Shown one piece after another: positions 9,499 through 26,449 of a stretch of DNA of 27,099 bases. Made by a program: the position numbers and the translations under genes. The DNA comes from a virus. The stretch's first letter is position 1, and every line of letters begins with the position of its first letter. Location of the stretch: the IMG/VR virus record IMGVR_UViG_3300032282_002121, positions 1 through 27,099 of that record; one strand, given 5' to 3'. Under the pieces are notes generated by a model. It was not told where the DNA came from, made no database searches, and saw only the letters and a program-made list of their open reading frames with translations.

Positions 9499-9747
9499 AT
9501 GACCGATACCGCAAAAAAGACATCCGAGCTGGCTACGGCTAACACCATAGCCGGCTCGGACCGTTTAGTGTTCCTGTATCAGGCGAACTCGTCTGCTCCC
9601 TCGACACGCACTATCACGGTAAAGAATTTTACTACGAATCTGATTTCGGGTCCGTATACAAATGACGCGGCCGCCAATACGGCCGGAGTGGCCCTAAAAG
9701 GTCTATATTACGACGCATCGGGTAACGTAAAGATTCGCTTAACATGA
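9499..9747 (+). CDS. Small virion-type protein
   Basis: The 82-residue protein begins with a KKTSELATANTIAGSDRLVFLY segment and ends GVALKGLYYDASGNVKIRL. Both ends are typical of short structural proteins encoded beside the preceding virion gene in marine T4-like phages. Beta-rich composition and lack of catalytic motifs suggest a fibre or decoration accessory. Its stop lies immediately upstream of the next ATG. Confidence 0.55.
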   Translation: MTDTAKKTSELATANTIAGSDRLVFLYQANSSAPSTRTITVKNFTTNLISGPYTNDAAANTAGVALKGLYYDASGNVKIRLT

Positions 9748-15065: not shown

Positions 15066-15081
15066 GTTCATGGAGGATATC

Positions 15082-15660
15082 ATGAACTATAAAAACCACT
15101 ATGACAAGTTAATAATCAGAGCCCAATTACTTTCTAGAGGAAGAACAGATACTTATTGTGAGCAACATCATATTATTCCAAGATGCATTGGCGGATTAGA
15201 TACCGGTGATAATTTAGTTTTGCTGACACCGGAAGAACACTATATTGCTCATCTTTTGTTGGTTAAAATATATCCACTTGAAACCGGTTTGATATATGCA
15301 GCTAATATAATGGCAAATAGAAATAATAAACAGTATGGTTGGATTAAAAGAAAATTTTCTATACAAAATTCTATAGATCATACCGGAATGTATCATACCA
15401 AAGAAGCAATTGCTAAAATGAAATTGGCAATTGAAAATAGAAAACAAAAAGATCCCGAATTATTTTTGGCTAAGCAACGATATGCAGGATCTCAACCAAA
15501 GAAAAAGAAAGATGGTTACTTTAAACCAAAAAGCAAACAGCATGCAGCCAATATCTCTTCGGCCGCTAAAAAAAGACCAAGATATCCATGTAATGTCTGT
15601 GGTAAACAGATTACAAAAGCTAACATTCAAAAACATATGAGAATTCATGTCGGTATTTGA
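15082..15660 (+). CDS. HNH homing endonuclease with C-terminal zinc finger
   Basis: ATG 15082 is chosen because GGAGG lies six bases upstream; ATG 15070 is upstream in frame but has no ribosome binding site. The 192-residue protein has an HNH core, H29-H30-I-I-P-R...GDN44-LVLLTPEEH53...H57, a NUMOD3-like middle, and a C-terminal C-x2-C-x11-H-x3-H finger (CNVCGKQ...KHMRIH). It would cut a specific site, probably in nrd genes of phages lacking it, and spread by repair. It is very AT-rich and inserted between nrdA and nrdB. Its stop overlaps the nrdB start by 14 bases. Confidence 0.85.
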   Translation: MNYKNHYDKLIIRAQLLSRGRTDTYCEQHHIIPRCIGGLDTGDNLVLLTPEEHYIAHLLLVKIYPLETGLIYAANIMANRNNKQYGWIKRKFSIQNSIDHTGMYHTKEAIAKMKLAIENRKQKDPELFLAKQRYAGSQPKKKKDGYFKPKSKQHAANISSAAKKRPRYPCNVCGKQITKANIQKHMRIHVGI

Positions 15661-16751: not shown

Positions 16752-17150
16752 ATGACATGGACCTATGGAATGAAAGAATTTGTGAGTGAGGATATCGGGG
16801 ACCACTACGGCTTCGTATACCTCATCACGAACACTGTCAACAACAAGAAGTATATCGGCAAGAAATGGTTCTGGTCTTCTAGAAAGAAGAAGATCAAGGG
16901 GCGTAAGCGTGCCAAGAGACTGAAGCTCGAGTCAGACTGGCAGAAGTATTATGGCTCATCCGAGGAGCTATGCGCCGACGTAGTCAAGTACGGCGAGGAC
17001 AAGTTTGCTCGCGAGATCTTGGTGTTGTGTAGGACCAAGTCAGAAGCTACGTATCACGAGGCCAGGTTGCAGTTCGAGTATAGAGTGCTCGAGTCTGACG
17101 ACTGGTACAACAAGTGGATATTCTGTAGAGTCAGGAAGAGCAACCTATAG
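16752..17150 (+). CDS. GIY-YIG family endonuclease-like protein
   Basis: The 132-residue protein has the GIY-YIG fold pattern: YGFVYLITN near 19-27, then KKYIGKK, a basic stretch (KKKIKGRKRAKR), a SDWQKYYGSSEEL motif and a late YHEARLQF Glu. Relatives are common in T4-like phages beside nrd genes, and some are homing nucleases. Codon use matches neighbouring genes, so this copy seems long resident. ATG 16752 is used; ATG 16770 (MKEFVSED) is a plausible start. It meets the minus-strand gene tail to tail at CTATAG (17145-17150), where both stops overlap. Confidence 0.75.
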   Translation: MTWTYGMKEFVSEDIGDHYGFVYLITNTVNNKKYIGKKWFWSSRKKKIKGRKRAKRLKLESDWQKYYGSSEELCADVVKYGEDKFAREILVLCRTKSEATYHEARLQFEYRVLESDDWYNKWIFCRVRKSNL

Positions 17151-17794: not shown

Positions 17795-17868
17795 GCGGGC
17801 GTGGCGTAATGGTAACGTACCTGGCTTCCACCCAGTAGTCGAGAGTTCGAATCTCTCCGTCCGCACCA
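17795..17868 (+). tRNA. tRNA-Gly (UCC)
   Basis: A 74-base cloverleaf with encoded CCA. The acceptor stem pairs GCGGGCG with CGTCCGC, the D-arm stem is GCGT/ACGT, and the T-arm is GAGAG-TTCGAAT-CTCTC. The anticodon loop CTTCCAC carries U33 and anticodon UCC. Position 27-43 is mismatched (C-U) and the discriminator base is A. Confidence 0.85.
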
Positions 17869-17873
17869 ATCAA

Positions 17874-17947
17874 GCGTCCGTGGCGTAATGGTAACGTACT
17901 GGTCTGCCAGTCCAGTGTCGAGAGTTCGAATCTCTCCGGACGCGCCA
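17874..17947 (+). tRNA. tRNA-Gly (GCC)
   Basis: A 74-base cloverleaf with encoded CCA, five bases after the first tRNA. The acceptor stem pairs GCGTCCG with CGGACGC. D- and T-arms are identical to those of the upstream tRNA, implying duplication. The anticodon loop CTGCCAG gives anticodon GCC, with a U-U mismatch at 31-39. The discriminator is G, unusual for a bacterial tRNA-Gly. Confidence 0.75.
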
Positions 17948-18620: not shown

Positions 18621-18881
18621 ATGCACGTTGAGATCTATACTCGTCCCGGTTGCGGCTTCTGTGACGCAGCCAAAGACTTGCTAAAGAACACGGGAATCCC
18701 GTACGTGGAGAATCGACTGGATGTCGACTTCACACGGGAGACCCTAGTAGAAAGGTACTCTACGGCGAAGACCTATCCGGTCATCGTCGTGGACGGGTTC
18801 TATATCGGCGGATTTACTGAGCTAAATAAGCTGGTAGAAGAAAGAGTTAGAAACTCACGAAAGCTATTGATCGGAGACTAG
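18621..18881 (+). CDS. Glutaredoxin
   Basis: This 86-residue thioredoxin-fold protein has the dithiol active site C10-G-F-C13, the cis-Pro in TYPVIVV and the glutathione-binding-type GG in IGGF. It reduces the C-terminal Cys pair of NrdA, so it supports the ribonucleotide reductase encoded upstream. GAGGAAAC before ATG is a good ribosome binding site. It could equally be an NrdH-like redoxin; the active-site sequence leans to glutaredoxin. Confidence 0.9.
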   Translation: MHVEIYTRPGCGFCDAAKDLLKNTGIPYVENRLDVDFTRETLVERYSTAKTYPVIVVDGFYIGGFTELNKLVEERVRNSRKLLIGD

Positions 18882-18884
18882 AAC

Positions 18885-19166
18885 ATGGAATACAAGCGCG
18901 ATACTATCCTGGAAGACCTGCGAAACAACATCGTGGAAGTGACCTTTACGAAGGTTAACGGCGAGCGCCGTTCCATGCGTTGCACGCTGATGACTAACTA
19001 TCTCCCCGAGGTGCATCAGAAGAATCCCGAAGAGCAGGAGAAGGAAAAGAATTTCCACAAGGAAAATCCTGACGTCCTAGCCGTGTGGGATGTTCAGAAC
19101 GGCGGCTGGCGCTCGTTTCGAATCAACTCTGTCGACTACGTACAGATCCTCGATAACGTCTACTAA
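18885..19166 (+). CDS. DUF2693-like protein
   Basis: The 93-residue protein has VEVTFTKVNGERRSMRCTLM, then an acidic, Glu-rich linker, then DVQNGGWRSFRINSVDYV. This 'modify the number of residues then WR-FR' layout is that of DUF2693, a small T4-like phage family of unknown function, possibly an SH3-like fold. It follows glutaredoxin by three bases, so it belongs to the same transcript. Confidence 0.7.
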   Translation: MEYKRDTILEDLRNNIVEVTFTKVNGERRSMRCTLMTNYLPEVHQKNPEEQEKEKNFHKENPDVLAVWDVQNGGWRSFRINSVDYVQILDNVY

Positions 19167-19183
19167 CAAGGAATCAAATAAAA

Positions 19184-19537
19184 ATGAGTCACTGGGGCTT
19201 TCATCTCATGTTAGACTGCTCGGGCTGTTCTCCCGATGCCATCACCAGCGAACACGTGATCTACAACTTCACGAAGCAGCTGGTCAATGATATCGACATG
19301 GTGGCTTACGGAGAGCCGCAGATCGTGAACTTCGGTTCTGGCAACAAGGCTGGATACACTCTGGTTCAGTTGATCGAGACTTCGAACATCTGCGCACACT
19401 TCGTCAACGAGACGAATACCATGTACCTAGACGTCTTCTCGTGCAAGACGTTCGAGCCCTCTGTGGTGGTAGACCTTGTGATGCGTTACTTCAAGGCTAA
19501 TAAGATCAGGCAGAACTTCGTAACCCGTCAGGCTTAA
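19184..19537 (+). CDS. speD: S-adenosylmethionine decarboxylase homologue
   Basis: The 117-residue protein matches the bacterial class of AdoMet decarboxylase: S67 aligns with the pyruvoyl-forming Ser63 of T. maritima, H72 with His68 and C87 with Cys83, at identical spacing. AdoMetDC makes the aminopropyl donor for spermidine. However, the residue before S67 is Thr rather than the usual Glu, and the residue after it is Asn, not His, so processing or substrate may differ. Homologues in phages are known, and some related family members have shifted to arginine or ornithine decarboxylation. It follows a weak AAGGAA site and abuts the next gene. Confidence 0.8.
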   Translation: MSHWGFHLMLDCSGCSPDAITSEHVIYNFTKQLVNDIDMVAYGEPQIVNFGSGNKAGYTLVQLIETSNICAHFVNETNTMYLDVFSCKTFEPSVVVDLVMRYFKANKIRQNFVTRQA

Positions 19538-20802
19538 TGTCCGACATAGTATTTCTTGTTGAGAGTATTGACAGATATGGTCAACCATATACTCTCAGTG
19601 ACAGACTGAAGTCCCTGTCTCCGGAATGGATCGAGCATTATAACTCCGAAATACTTAAAACGTATATCAACTGCATTGGAAAGAAGATTACTTTTCAAGC
19701 TTATCATGCAGTTGAAAATTTTGATCCTAACAAGAAATACTACTACTTCATTTGTCTGGATCACTTCAACTTTGATTTTCCAGTGTTCTTTCAGATGCTG
19801 GGCAAGTCAAAGTTGAAGCGACTCCATGACAACAATATTCCTTTACTATTCGCGCACGACTTAGAGACGATTCCGCACCTGGAATACACTGCATTTGTGA
19901 AGCAGCTCGAGTGGTTGTTCCTGATGCGAGGCGTATATTCTGGTGTAGAAAACGAAATCATCGTGCTGAATGCCGGCGAGATAGTGCCACGGCAGGCCGC
20001 ATTCATCAAGCAGTGGTTCTATAATAAGTTCAAGTTCATTCAGAGTCCGCTGCTACTCAAATATTCAGCCAATGAGTTATGCGAGATATATCCGGCCGAA
20101 GACGAGCTCGAGCGTCTAAACGGTCTAGAAAAAGAACGGCAGTTTACGTGCCTGAATAGAACGCCGCGATTTCATAGATCGACACTTATTCATGGATTGA
20201 AGTCGCAGAATCTGGATGGTGAAGGCTTCATTAGCAACGGCCATCTTACTCAATACAACACCCATAGCATAACTTCCGAGACTGCCTACGCCACGGCGGT
20301 CAAGAATCAAATAGTCCAGAATAACGGCTCGCTCCCCGTAATGACTCTGGACGAGTATACATTTACCGACAATCGACCAAAATCTCTGCCCGCTTTCCCA
20401 GAACAACTGTGGAAGACGTATTATGACATCGTGTCAGAGACCGGCGTAGTATACTTCTATCCTGACCCGTTGGATCTTTCCCTGATTACAGAGAAGACGG
20501 TAAAGTCTATACTGATGATGCGGCCGTTCATGATCAACGGCGGTCCATACTCTTTAAAATCTCTGAAGAGATTCGGTTTCAAGACATATGACTTCCTATT
20601 TGATGAGAACCATGATGACGTAGAGAATCTAATAGATCGTCAGGAGATCATAGTCCAGAACGTCCGGAATTACGTCAATAAATATTCTGAACTTAGCGTC
20701 AAGATCAATGCTCACAGAGATGTAGTGCGCTTCAATCGCCATCGTCTATTGAACGTGGATTACGAACAACTACTTGCCAATGAATTAATGAGTGTATCAT
20801 GA
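19537..20802 (+). CDS. Glycosyltransferase-like protein (fucosyltransferase-like C-terminus)
   Basis: The 421-residue protein contains FTCLNRTPRFHR (about 203-214) and a C-terminal ITEKTVKSILMMRPFMINGG segment (about 317-336), followed by FGFKTYDFLFDENHDD. The T-E-K-(T/F)...PF...GG pattern resembles the donor-binding part of alpha-(1,3)-fucosyltransferase-like proteins seen in T4-like and giant viruses. The acceptor is unknown. It overlaps the next glycosyltransferase by four bases. Codon use in the first 90 codons is more AT-rich than later. Confidence 0.55.
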   Translation: MSDIVFLVESIDRYGQPYTLSDRLKSLSPEWIEHYNSEILKTYINCIGKKITFQAYHAVENFDPNKKYYYFICLDHFNFDFPVFFQMLGKSKLKRLHDNNIPLLFAHDLETIPHLEYTAFVKQLEWLFLMRGVYSGVENEIIVLNAGEIVPRQAAFIKQWFYNKFKFIQSPLLLKYSANELCEIYPAEDELERLNGLEKERQFTCLNRTPRFHRSTLIHGLKSQNLDGEGFISNGHLTQYNTHSITSETAYATAVKNQIVQNNGSLPVMTLDEYTFTDNRPKSLPAFPEQLWKTYYDIVSETGVVYFYPDPLDLSLITEKTVKSILMMRPFMINGGPYSLKSLKRFGFKTYDFLFDENHDDVENLIDRQEIIVQNVRNYVNKYSELSVKINAHRDVVRFNRHRLLNVDYEQLLANELMSVS

Positions 20803-23745: not shown

Positions 23746-23991
23746 ATGCCGACATATACATTCATAAACAAGGAGACCGGAGAAGAGACGACAGAGTACC
23801 TGTCTATCTCCGATCTCGACAAGTTCTGTAAGAAGAATAAGCACCTTGAGCAGGTCATCGGGGCCCCTGCTATTGGCGACACGGTTCGCCTCGGTCTCAA
23901 GAAGCCGGATAACGCCTTCCGAGACCACCTCAAAGAGATCAAGAAGAAGCACTCTCGAGGATTCACGAAGAGCACCGTCAACACCTTCTAG
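23746..23991 (+). CDS. Conserved small T4-like phage protein
   Basis: The 81-residue protein reads MPTYTFINKETGEE at the start, then GAPAIGDTVRLGLKKPDNAF and a Lys-rich C-terminus. This is a common small protein in T4-like phages whose N-terminus resembles FmdB-type proteins, but the zinc ribbon cysteines are missing. Function is unknown. Confidence 0.6.
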   Translation: MPTYTFINKETGEETTEYLSISDLDKFCKKNKHLEQVIGAPAIGDTVRLGLKKPDNAFRDHLKEIKKKHSRGFTKSTVNTF

Positions 23992-25417: not shown

Positions 25418-25446
25418 TGTACATTCAGTGGCACTTGGGGTAAAAT
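25418..25446 (+). promoter_or_regulatory. Host-type promoter for the DUF932 gene
   Basis: TGTACA (25418-25423) and TAAAAT (25441-25446) are separated by exactly 17 bases. Initiation near 25453 gives a leader of about 43 bases before ATG 25496, with AAAGGA as ribosome binding site. Confidence 0.7.
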
Positions 25447-25495
25447 GATTTTATTGGATGGGAACATCCAGTCTGAATCGAAAGGAAACTACATT

Positions 25496-26449
25496 ATGGC
25501 TCATGAAATCGAAGATGTGAATGGCGTCCCCGCAATGGCTTATGTCGGTCAGGTTCCCTGGCACGGCCTAGGCAAGGAAGTCCCGGCCGACCTGACCCCG
25601 GCGCAGATGCTCCAGGCTGCTCAGCTCGACTGGACCGTCGAGAAGATCCCGGCTTTTGCCACGATCAACGGCAAGAAGGTCCGTGTCAACCGCTCGGCTC
25701 TAGTCCGCAACAGCGACCACAAGATGCTCGACGTCGTCACCGACGACTGGAATCCGGTCCAGAACCAGGAAGCCTTCGAGTTCTTCAACGAGTACATCAT
25801 GGCTGGTGACATGGAGATGCACACCGCCGGCTCGCTCAAGGGCGGTCAGGTCGTGTGGGGTCTGGCTCGAGTGAAGGAGTCGTTCGAGCTGTTCAAGGGC
25901 GATCGCATCGACTCGTATCTGCTCTTCTCGAACTTCCACAAGTACGGCTACTCGACCGACATTCGCTTCACTCCGATTCGCGTCGTGTGCAACAACACTC
26001 TGACGCTGTCGCTGAACTCGGCCGTCGAGCGTATGGCCAAGATCTCGCACCGCAAGGAGTTCAAGGCTGAAGACGTCAAGAGCATGCTGGGTATCGCCAC
26101 GGACAAGCTCACGAAGTACAAGGAGATGGCTCAGTTCCTCGGCTCCAAGCGAGCCACTCACGAGCACGCTCTCGACTACTTCTCGACCATCTTCCCCGGC
26201 GCGGAAGACGAGGAAGAGATCAAGTTCTCGCGTAACGCCAAGCTGGCCCTCGAGATGATGCACACTCAGCCCGGCGCCGAGTACGCTCGCGGCACCTTCT
26301 GGCAGCTGTTCAACACGGTCACGTTCATGACCGACCACATCATGGGCCGGAACGTCGACAACCGTCTGACCAACGCCTGGTACGGCCACAACAAGACGCT
26401 CAAGACTCGAGCGCTCGAGACCGCCGTAGAGATGGCCAACGCGGCCTAA
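25496..26449 (+). CDS. DUF932 / phage-plasmid-like protein (TIGR03299 type)
   Basis: The start is ATG 25496 with AAAGGA about nine bases upstream; an ATG at 25445 overlaps the -10 box and cannot be used from that promoter. The 317-residue protein has the family features: YVGQVPWHGLGKEV near the N-terminus, WTVEKIPAF, and a conserved IRVVCNNTLTLSL segment. The function of this family is unknown; it occurs on phages and plasmids. Codons are strongly C-ending and more GC-rich than in neighbours. It is a single-gene unit with its own promoter and strong terminator, which suggests high, separate expression. Confidence 0.85.
   Translation: MAHEIEDVNGVPAMAYVGQVPWHGLGKEVPADLTPAQMLQAAQLDWTVEKIPAFATINGKKVRVNRSALVRNSDHKMLDVVTDDWNPVQNQEAFEFFNEYIMAGDMEMHTAGSLKGGQVVWGLARVKESFELFKGDRIDSYLLFSNFHKYGYSTDIRFTPIRVVCNNTLTLSLNSAVERMAKISHRKEFKAEDVKSMLGIATDKLTKYKEMAQFLGSKRATHEHALDYFSTIFPGAEDEEEIKFSRNAKLALEMMHTQPGAEYARGTFWQLFNTVTFMTDHIMGRNVDNRLTNAWYGHNKTLKTRALETAVEMANAA

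Follow-up and report, generated by a model that had tools for sequence, protein, structure and literature searches.

An altered processing site in a phage SpeD homologue points to a pyruvoyl-dependent L-ornithine decarboxylase of the SpeDC type

The whole stretch of viral DNA analysed here (the window; 27,099 nt of the record IMGVR_UViG_3300032282_002121) contains at positions 19184-19537, on the plus strand, an intact ORF of 117 codons with its ATG at 19184 and its TAA ending at 19537, the stop codon overlapping the ATG of the next ORF. An earlier, sequence-only reading had recognized in it a homologue of S-adenosylmethionine decarboxylase (AdoMetDC, SpeD) in which both residues flanking the pyruvoyl-forming serine are replaced, and had suggested that the enzyme could act on a different substrate, for instance arginine or ornithine, or have lost self-processing. 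The locus raises the question of whether the altered motif is a lesion or the mark of a different decarboxylase and, in the latter case, which substrate is used. The features on which the argument turns are listed below, with residues placed by alignment to the AdoMetDC of Thermotoga maritima (T. maritima).

19168-19172, plus strand: AAGGA, read from the sequence 11 bases 5' of the ATG, likely ribosome-binding site
19184-19537, plus strand: speDC-like gene, predicted pyruvoyl-dependent L-ornithine decarboxylase proenzyme of 117 aa (ORF, PF02675, motif counts, tree, and model compared with T. maritima AdoMetDC)
19367-19369, plus strand: codon of Gln62, taken as SpeDC diagnostic residue 1 (T. 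maritima V58; number assigned in this analysis)
19379-19384, plus strand: codons of Thr66 and Ser67, self-cleavage site predicted from the family (T. maritima E62-S63); Thr66 is diagnostic residue 2 by our assignment
19397-19402, plus strand: codons of His72 (T. maritima H68) and Phe73, the latter taken as diagnostic residue 3
19424-19426, plus strand: codon of Tyr81, taken as diagnostic residue 4 (T. maritima A77)
19442-19444, plus strand: codon of Cys87 (T. maritima C83), catalytic acid/base by homology

Family, predicted fold and active-site residues

The product of 19184-19537 is a member of the class 1b AdoMetDC/SpeD family. It matches the Pfam family AdoMet_dc (PF02675) at 1e-21, with 77.7 bits against a cut-off of 25, and PHROG 3125 (S-adenosylmethionine decarboxylase) at 4.1e-22; against TIGR03330, the NCBIfam equivalog for true AdoMetDC, it scores 40.9 bits, under the cut-off of 75.65. 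A search of PDB chains with the single protein gave no match up to E = 1, and an alignment-profile search of the PDB matched AdoMetDC weakly (best 0.00082). The AlphaFold2 model, built from 43 aligned relatives, has a mean pLDDT of 95.8 and a pTM of 0.89 and retains the whole fold, its top PDB matches being the AdoMetDC of T. maritima (1vr7, 1tlu; TM 0.87; Z 17.9 and rmsd 1.8 over 113 residues). The fold predicted for the phage protein agrees with that of the prokaryotic AdoMetDC, although the identity to the T. maritima enzyme is 19-20%.

Residues 65-68 of the phage protein read E-T-S-N, and H72 and C87 are also present. In the alignment, S67, H72 and C87 fall on S63, H68 and C83 of T. maritima, ungapped from S67 to C87, and these are the residues that PMC10407285 describes as essential for self-processing. 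Around them, E62, H64, T69, P71 and A77 of T. maritima are replaced by T66, N68, F73, N75 and Y81. The exact family spacing of serine, histidine and cysteine that had been claimed for this protein is borne out by the alignment, as are the two substitutions at the processing site, Thr66 for the Glu before the serine and Asn68 for the His that follows it; spacing and substitutions are far beyond chance.

Signature, phylogeny and selection

A conserved set of Gln, Thr, Phe and Tyr is given as diagnostic of SpeDC, an AdoMetDC-derived pyruvoyl-dependent L-ornithine decarboxylase (Li et al., 2023, PMC10407285). In the phage protein these four residues correspond to Q62, T66, F73 and Y81, which are conserved in this region and distinguish it from AdoMetDC; their positions were assigned in this analysis, and only one fit is obvious. 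A scan of viral contigs returned 387 stretches matching a search pattern, all of them (387/387) confirmed relatives, and the best 80 were examined without dereplication, among them one (L001) identical to the phage protein; a scan of bacterial and archaeal genomes gave at least 544 confirmed relatives, the best 80 of which were likewise examined. Both sets were picked by similarity to the phage protein, so that agreement with it is partly built in. With this reservation, Q62, T66, S67, N68, H72, F73, Y81 and C87 are all present in 80/80 of the viral relatives (best 80 of 387), and Q62, T66, S67, H72 and C87 in 80/80 of the cellular ones (best 80 of at least 544), where F73 occurs in 79/80, Y81 in 78/80 and the four residues Q/T/F/Y together in 77/80. 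Position 68 is more variable in the same best 80 of at least 544 cellular relatives, with Leu in 57/80 and Asn in 17/80, and in these alignments Asn68 is a milder, mostly phage-side feature.

Two controls were free of this selection by similarity. For the first, 61 genomes of the order that includes Methanoculleus were searched using only the Pfam family, and 39 of them had matches; of 40 places, the 30 given as loci were all counted, and Q/T/F/Y together, as well as Leu at position 68, were found in 30/30 of these Methanomicrobiales homologues. The second consisted of 37 loci related to the SpeD of cyanophage S-PM2, of which two partial ones (L239 and L240) were dropped. All of the 35 full-length proteins carry E66, H68, T73, P75 and A81 (35/35), and none has Q/T/F/Y together (0/35). 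The S-PM2-type and Q/T/F/Y-type proteins separate cleanly. The change at Thr66 is a clade signature and not a lesion.

Two side observations concern the distribution of the family. Desulfobacter latus encodes a 310-aa fusion of two SpeD domains (L170:1033-1965) that adjoins a spermidine synthase-like gene; the fusion has lost the Thr-Ser processing site in its second domain, and an intact SpeDC-type gene is found separately in the same genome. PMC10407285 describes a comparable fusion from Victivallis. When plasmids were searched with an archaeal homologue, three records were returned, two from Leptospira and one from Rhizobium.

The tree comprised 56 rows, namely the phage protein, 16 of the 80 viral and 25 of the 80 cellular relatives, nine references, and five loci of the Pfam-type and archaeal sampling, and it represents the assayed SpeDC proteins through their Methanomicrobiales relatives, not through the assayed sequences themselves. 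The phage protein falls in a phage clade of 18 rows (100/93), one of which, L090, is a contig binned as Bacteroidetes. This clade is sister to a contig from a proteobacterial bin (97/85), and both are nested in a clade of 45 rows (96/84) with bacterial and archaeal SpeDC-type proteins. The protein of Sinorhizobium phage phiN3 lies just outside the 45-row clade with weak support (93/17), the pelagiphage proteins, including that of HTVC201P, lie further out than phiN3, and T. maritima, S-PM2 and B23 stand at the opposite side of the tree; phiN3, L115, HTVC201P and B23 have long branches, and their positions are unsure.

In comparisons with six relatives, third codon positions are 25-47% identical and first and second positions 76-86%, and dN/dS is ~0.07 and ~0.14 in two pairs, dS being saturated in the other four. 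The speDC-like gene is under strong purifying selection and is kept as a protein. The proposed loss of self-processing is unsupported, because the self-processing residues S67, H72 and C87 are retained, a clade with active, self-processed members in the literature carries the substitutions throughout, and purifying selection is strong. Nor is the protein the isolated oddity that the earlier reading implied, its substitutions being the normal, clade-wide signature of a described subfamily.

Substrate and competing explanations

According to PMC10407285, ornithine is decarboxylated, and arginine and lysine are not, by proteins from seven organisms, including three Methanomicrobia. Methanogenium cariaci, Methanospirillum hungatei and Methanoculleus all belong to the order sampled here, Methanomicrobiales. 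As for phages, five homologues of 117-122 aa from freshwater phages, assayed by the same group of authors, are all reported to have ornithine decarboxylase activity, UCP01 (117 aa, from a freshwater myovirus) acting on both ornithine and arginine and UCP04 having trace activity on arginine (PMC9992855). In tblastn searches of the phage collection, these assayed phage SpeDC proteins, LBP and UCP01-UCP04, were not among the matches.

The protein studied here resembles SpeDC in size, family, the S/H/C residues, Q/T/F/Y as placed here, clade and a freshwater-type phage carrier; it differs in Asn68, where Leu is found in 30/30 of the Methanomicrobiales homologues and in 57/80 of the cellular relatives (best 80 of at least 544). 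We consider it very probable that the gene encodes a phage SpeDC, that is, a class 1b AdoMetDC homologue turned pyruvoyl-dependent L-ornithine decarboxylase, and the protein most likely belongs, as an ordinary member, to an enzyme group already described in phages and bacteria. The earlier suggestion of another substrate, arginine or ornithine, gains support from the four diagnostic residues as placed here and from the tree, with ornithine as the better choice of the two.

Self-cleavage and the use of ornithine would be expected by analogy with the relatives described in the literature. The proenzyme of 117 residues would cut itself between Thr66 and Ser67, so that the 66 N-terminal residues form the beta chain and the 51 C-terminal residues the alpha chain, the latter headed by the pyruvoyl group into which Ser67 would be converted, with His72 and Cys87 acting in both processing and decarboxylation. 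The pyruvoyl group would then form a Schiff base with L-ornithine, CO2 and putrescine would be released during infection, and the putrescine may be used directly or via host enzymes in phage replication. Some activity on arginine, as in UCP01, is perhaps present too, and may be weak.

A larger role for arginine is nevertheless quite unlikely. The protein would then be a pyruvoyl-dependent arginine decarboxylase (SpeDA) or a dual enzyme, its agmatine being converted to putrescine by the host, and this explanation draws on UCP01, the 117-aa freshwater myovirus homologue that is reported active on ornithine as well as arginine (PMC9992855), and on the homologue of pelagiphage HTVC201P, which is reported to act on arginine only (PMC9992855). 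The latter shares Q62, T66, S67, H72 and C87 with the protein of the window, is likewise carried by a phage, and its gene adjoins ribonucleotide reductase. It differs, however, in having His68 and in Ser73 and Gln81 in place of F73 and Y81, and it branches separately, outside the SpeDC clade. Moreover, an arginase/agmatinase-family gene is absent from 29/29 related phage records, which are possibly fragments, and ornithine activity is reported for 5/5 assayed phage SpeDC proteins, arginine activity for one, and a trace of it for another (PMC9992855). Where PMC10407285 treats the diagnostic residues, it gives no simple sequence signature for SpeDA.

Still less probable is a true AdoMetDC in which Thr and Asn are tolerated on either side of the processing serine and which feeds a host spermidine synthase. 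Family membership and the occurrence of true speD in cyanophages speak for it, and so does phiN3, whose protein is the nearest named phage match (32.5% identity) and is reported to be a true AdoMetDC despite clustering with ornithine decarboxylases (PMC9992855). The phiN3 protein (L082:2989-3405), of the same class 1b fold, has Q, F and Y in the alignment but Asp at the remaining diagnostic position, that of Thr; since it is reported as an AdoMetDC, three of the four residues do not exclude that activity. It departs from the protein of the window at the processing site itself, which reads D-S-H in phiN3 and T-S-N here. The residue before the pyruvoyl serine is Glu in T. maritima, in S-PM2 and in 35/35 of the S-PM2-type controls, and Asp in phiN3, so that an acidic residue at this place, an observation from three references and 35 controls, accompanies true AdoMetDC and is lacking in the phage protein with its Thr66. 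The score under the TIGR03330 equivalog cut-off argues in the same direction. A Pro said in PMC10407285 to be completely conserved in true AdoMetDC, and to separate it from SpeDA, is replaced by N75 (T. maritima P71), but this carries little weight, as phiN3 has Asp there and a Pro stands beside a short insertion in 13/80 of the viral relatives (best 80 of 387).

That the protein is a decayed or non-processing homologue without enzyme activity, perhaps with a regulatory role such as that of the trypanosome prozyme, is scarcely credible: its motif departs from the canonical ESH and degraded SpeDC domains do exist, for example the second domain of the D. latus fusion without Thr-Ser, but S67, H72 and C87 are kept in 80/80 viral (best 80 of 387) and 80/80 cellular relatives (best 80 of at least 544), the codon-position pattern and low dN/dS against relatives are those of a maintained protein, and the confident model retains the whole fold, so that loss of function was rejected with catalytic triad, fold and selection intact.

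The SpeDC assignment leaves room for a more specific proposal, which we regard as rather doubtful, namely that the change from Glu/Asp to Thr before the pyruvoyl serine would alone be the main substrate gate, an acidic residue selecting AdoMet and Thr selecting amino acids, and that the phage clade with Asn68 may also be shifted in range, for example towards dual use of ornithine and arginine. The idea arises because the three AdoMetDC references that are reported as active have Glu or Asp, phiN3 doing so together with the other three SpeDC-type residues, whereas the SpeDC clade and HTVC201P have Thr. In human AdoMetDC adenine is held by the backbone of the residue that precedes the serine, a point that was not used as evidence.

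Genomic context and significance

The window encodes, by PHROG matches, ThyX, NrdA, NrdB, a glutaredoxin, PhoH, a primase, exonucleases and a virion structural gene. Among known phages, the only close match at the DNA level is a 141-base piece of a ribonucleotide reductase gene in Erwinia phage AH04. Two conserved neighbours, identified by PHROGs, lie directly upstream of the speDC-like gene:

18621-18881, plus strand: glutaredoxin-like gene
18885-19166, plus strand: small phage gene, phrog_1086

The order glutaredoxin, phrog_1086, speDC is kept in the relatives, with matches to the two neighbours in 68/80 and 64/80 viral loci, respectively, within <=5 kb (best 80 of 387). The ORF directly downstream (19537-20802, 421 aa) has no PHROG at 0.001 and is matched in only 5/80 related loci, while the neighbours on both sides of it are widely kept. 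Elsewhere in the window, a homing-endonuclease-like gene (15070-15660) lies between nrdA and nrdB, a gene after nrdB (16752-17150) matches homing endonucleases, its best PHROG being labelled NAD synthetase, and two adjacent tRNA-Gly genes, with anticodons TCC and GCC, occupy 17795-17947 on the plus strand.

Other polyamine genes were sought in the window and in related phages. Of 34 translated ORFs, the PHROG context scan covered 30, leaving aside 9499-9747, 23746-23991 and 25445-26449, with the speDC-like ORF scanned separately; among these 30, no other polyamine gene was named by PHROG matches. In 29 records chosen from the 80 viral loci, mostly longer contigs and possibly fragments, spermidine synthase (PF01564) and arginase/agmatinase (PF00491) were absent from 29/29. 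The missing spermidine synthase is weak evidence for a SpeDC, the records being fragmentary and phages with a true speD being able to use the host enzyme. A phage-encoded polyamine pathway was rejected on the absence of PF01564 and PF00491 from the 29/29 records, which are possibly fragments, and of further polyamine genes from the scanned ORFs of the window.

Different arrangements are seen in other phages. In Microcystis phage MaAM05 (L083:2492-5270), two different SpeD homologues are clustered with annotated speE and speB, and this cluster could be a complete route from arginine to spermidine, provided that the second of the SpeD homologues acts as an arginine decarboxylase. In the Pelagibacter phages HTVC109P, HTVC115P and HTVC201P (L085, L086 and L088), a speD homologue precedes the gene of the ribonucleotide reductase alpha subunit, either directly or at a distance of no more than a few genes, and the speDC-like gene of the window is also near nrd genes. 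From this pairing with nucleotide-synthesis genes, a role in large-scale phage DNA synthesis may be imagined, but this is only a guess.

What looked like a broken active-site motif is thus characteristic of an enzyme group already described, and this SpeDC-type group is common in T4-like phage contigs, a single viral contig scan having given 387 stretches, all confirmed. The annotation speD in such phages would mislead toward the AdoMetDC of the spermidine pathway, when synthesis of putrescine is more likely. Finally, phiN3 offers by comparison a simple idea of the residue that may determine the substrate, the alternation of an acidic residue and Thr before the serine being a possible switch.
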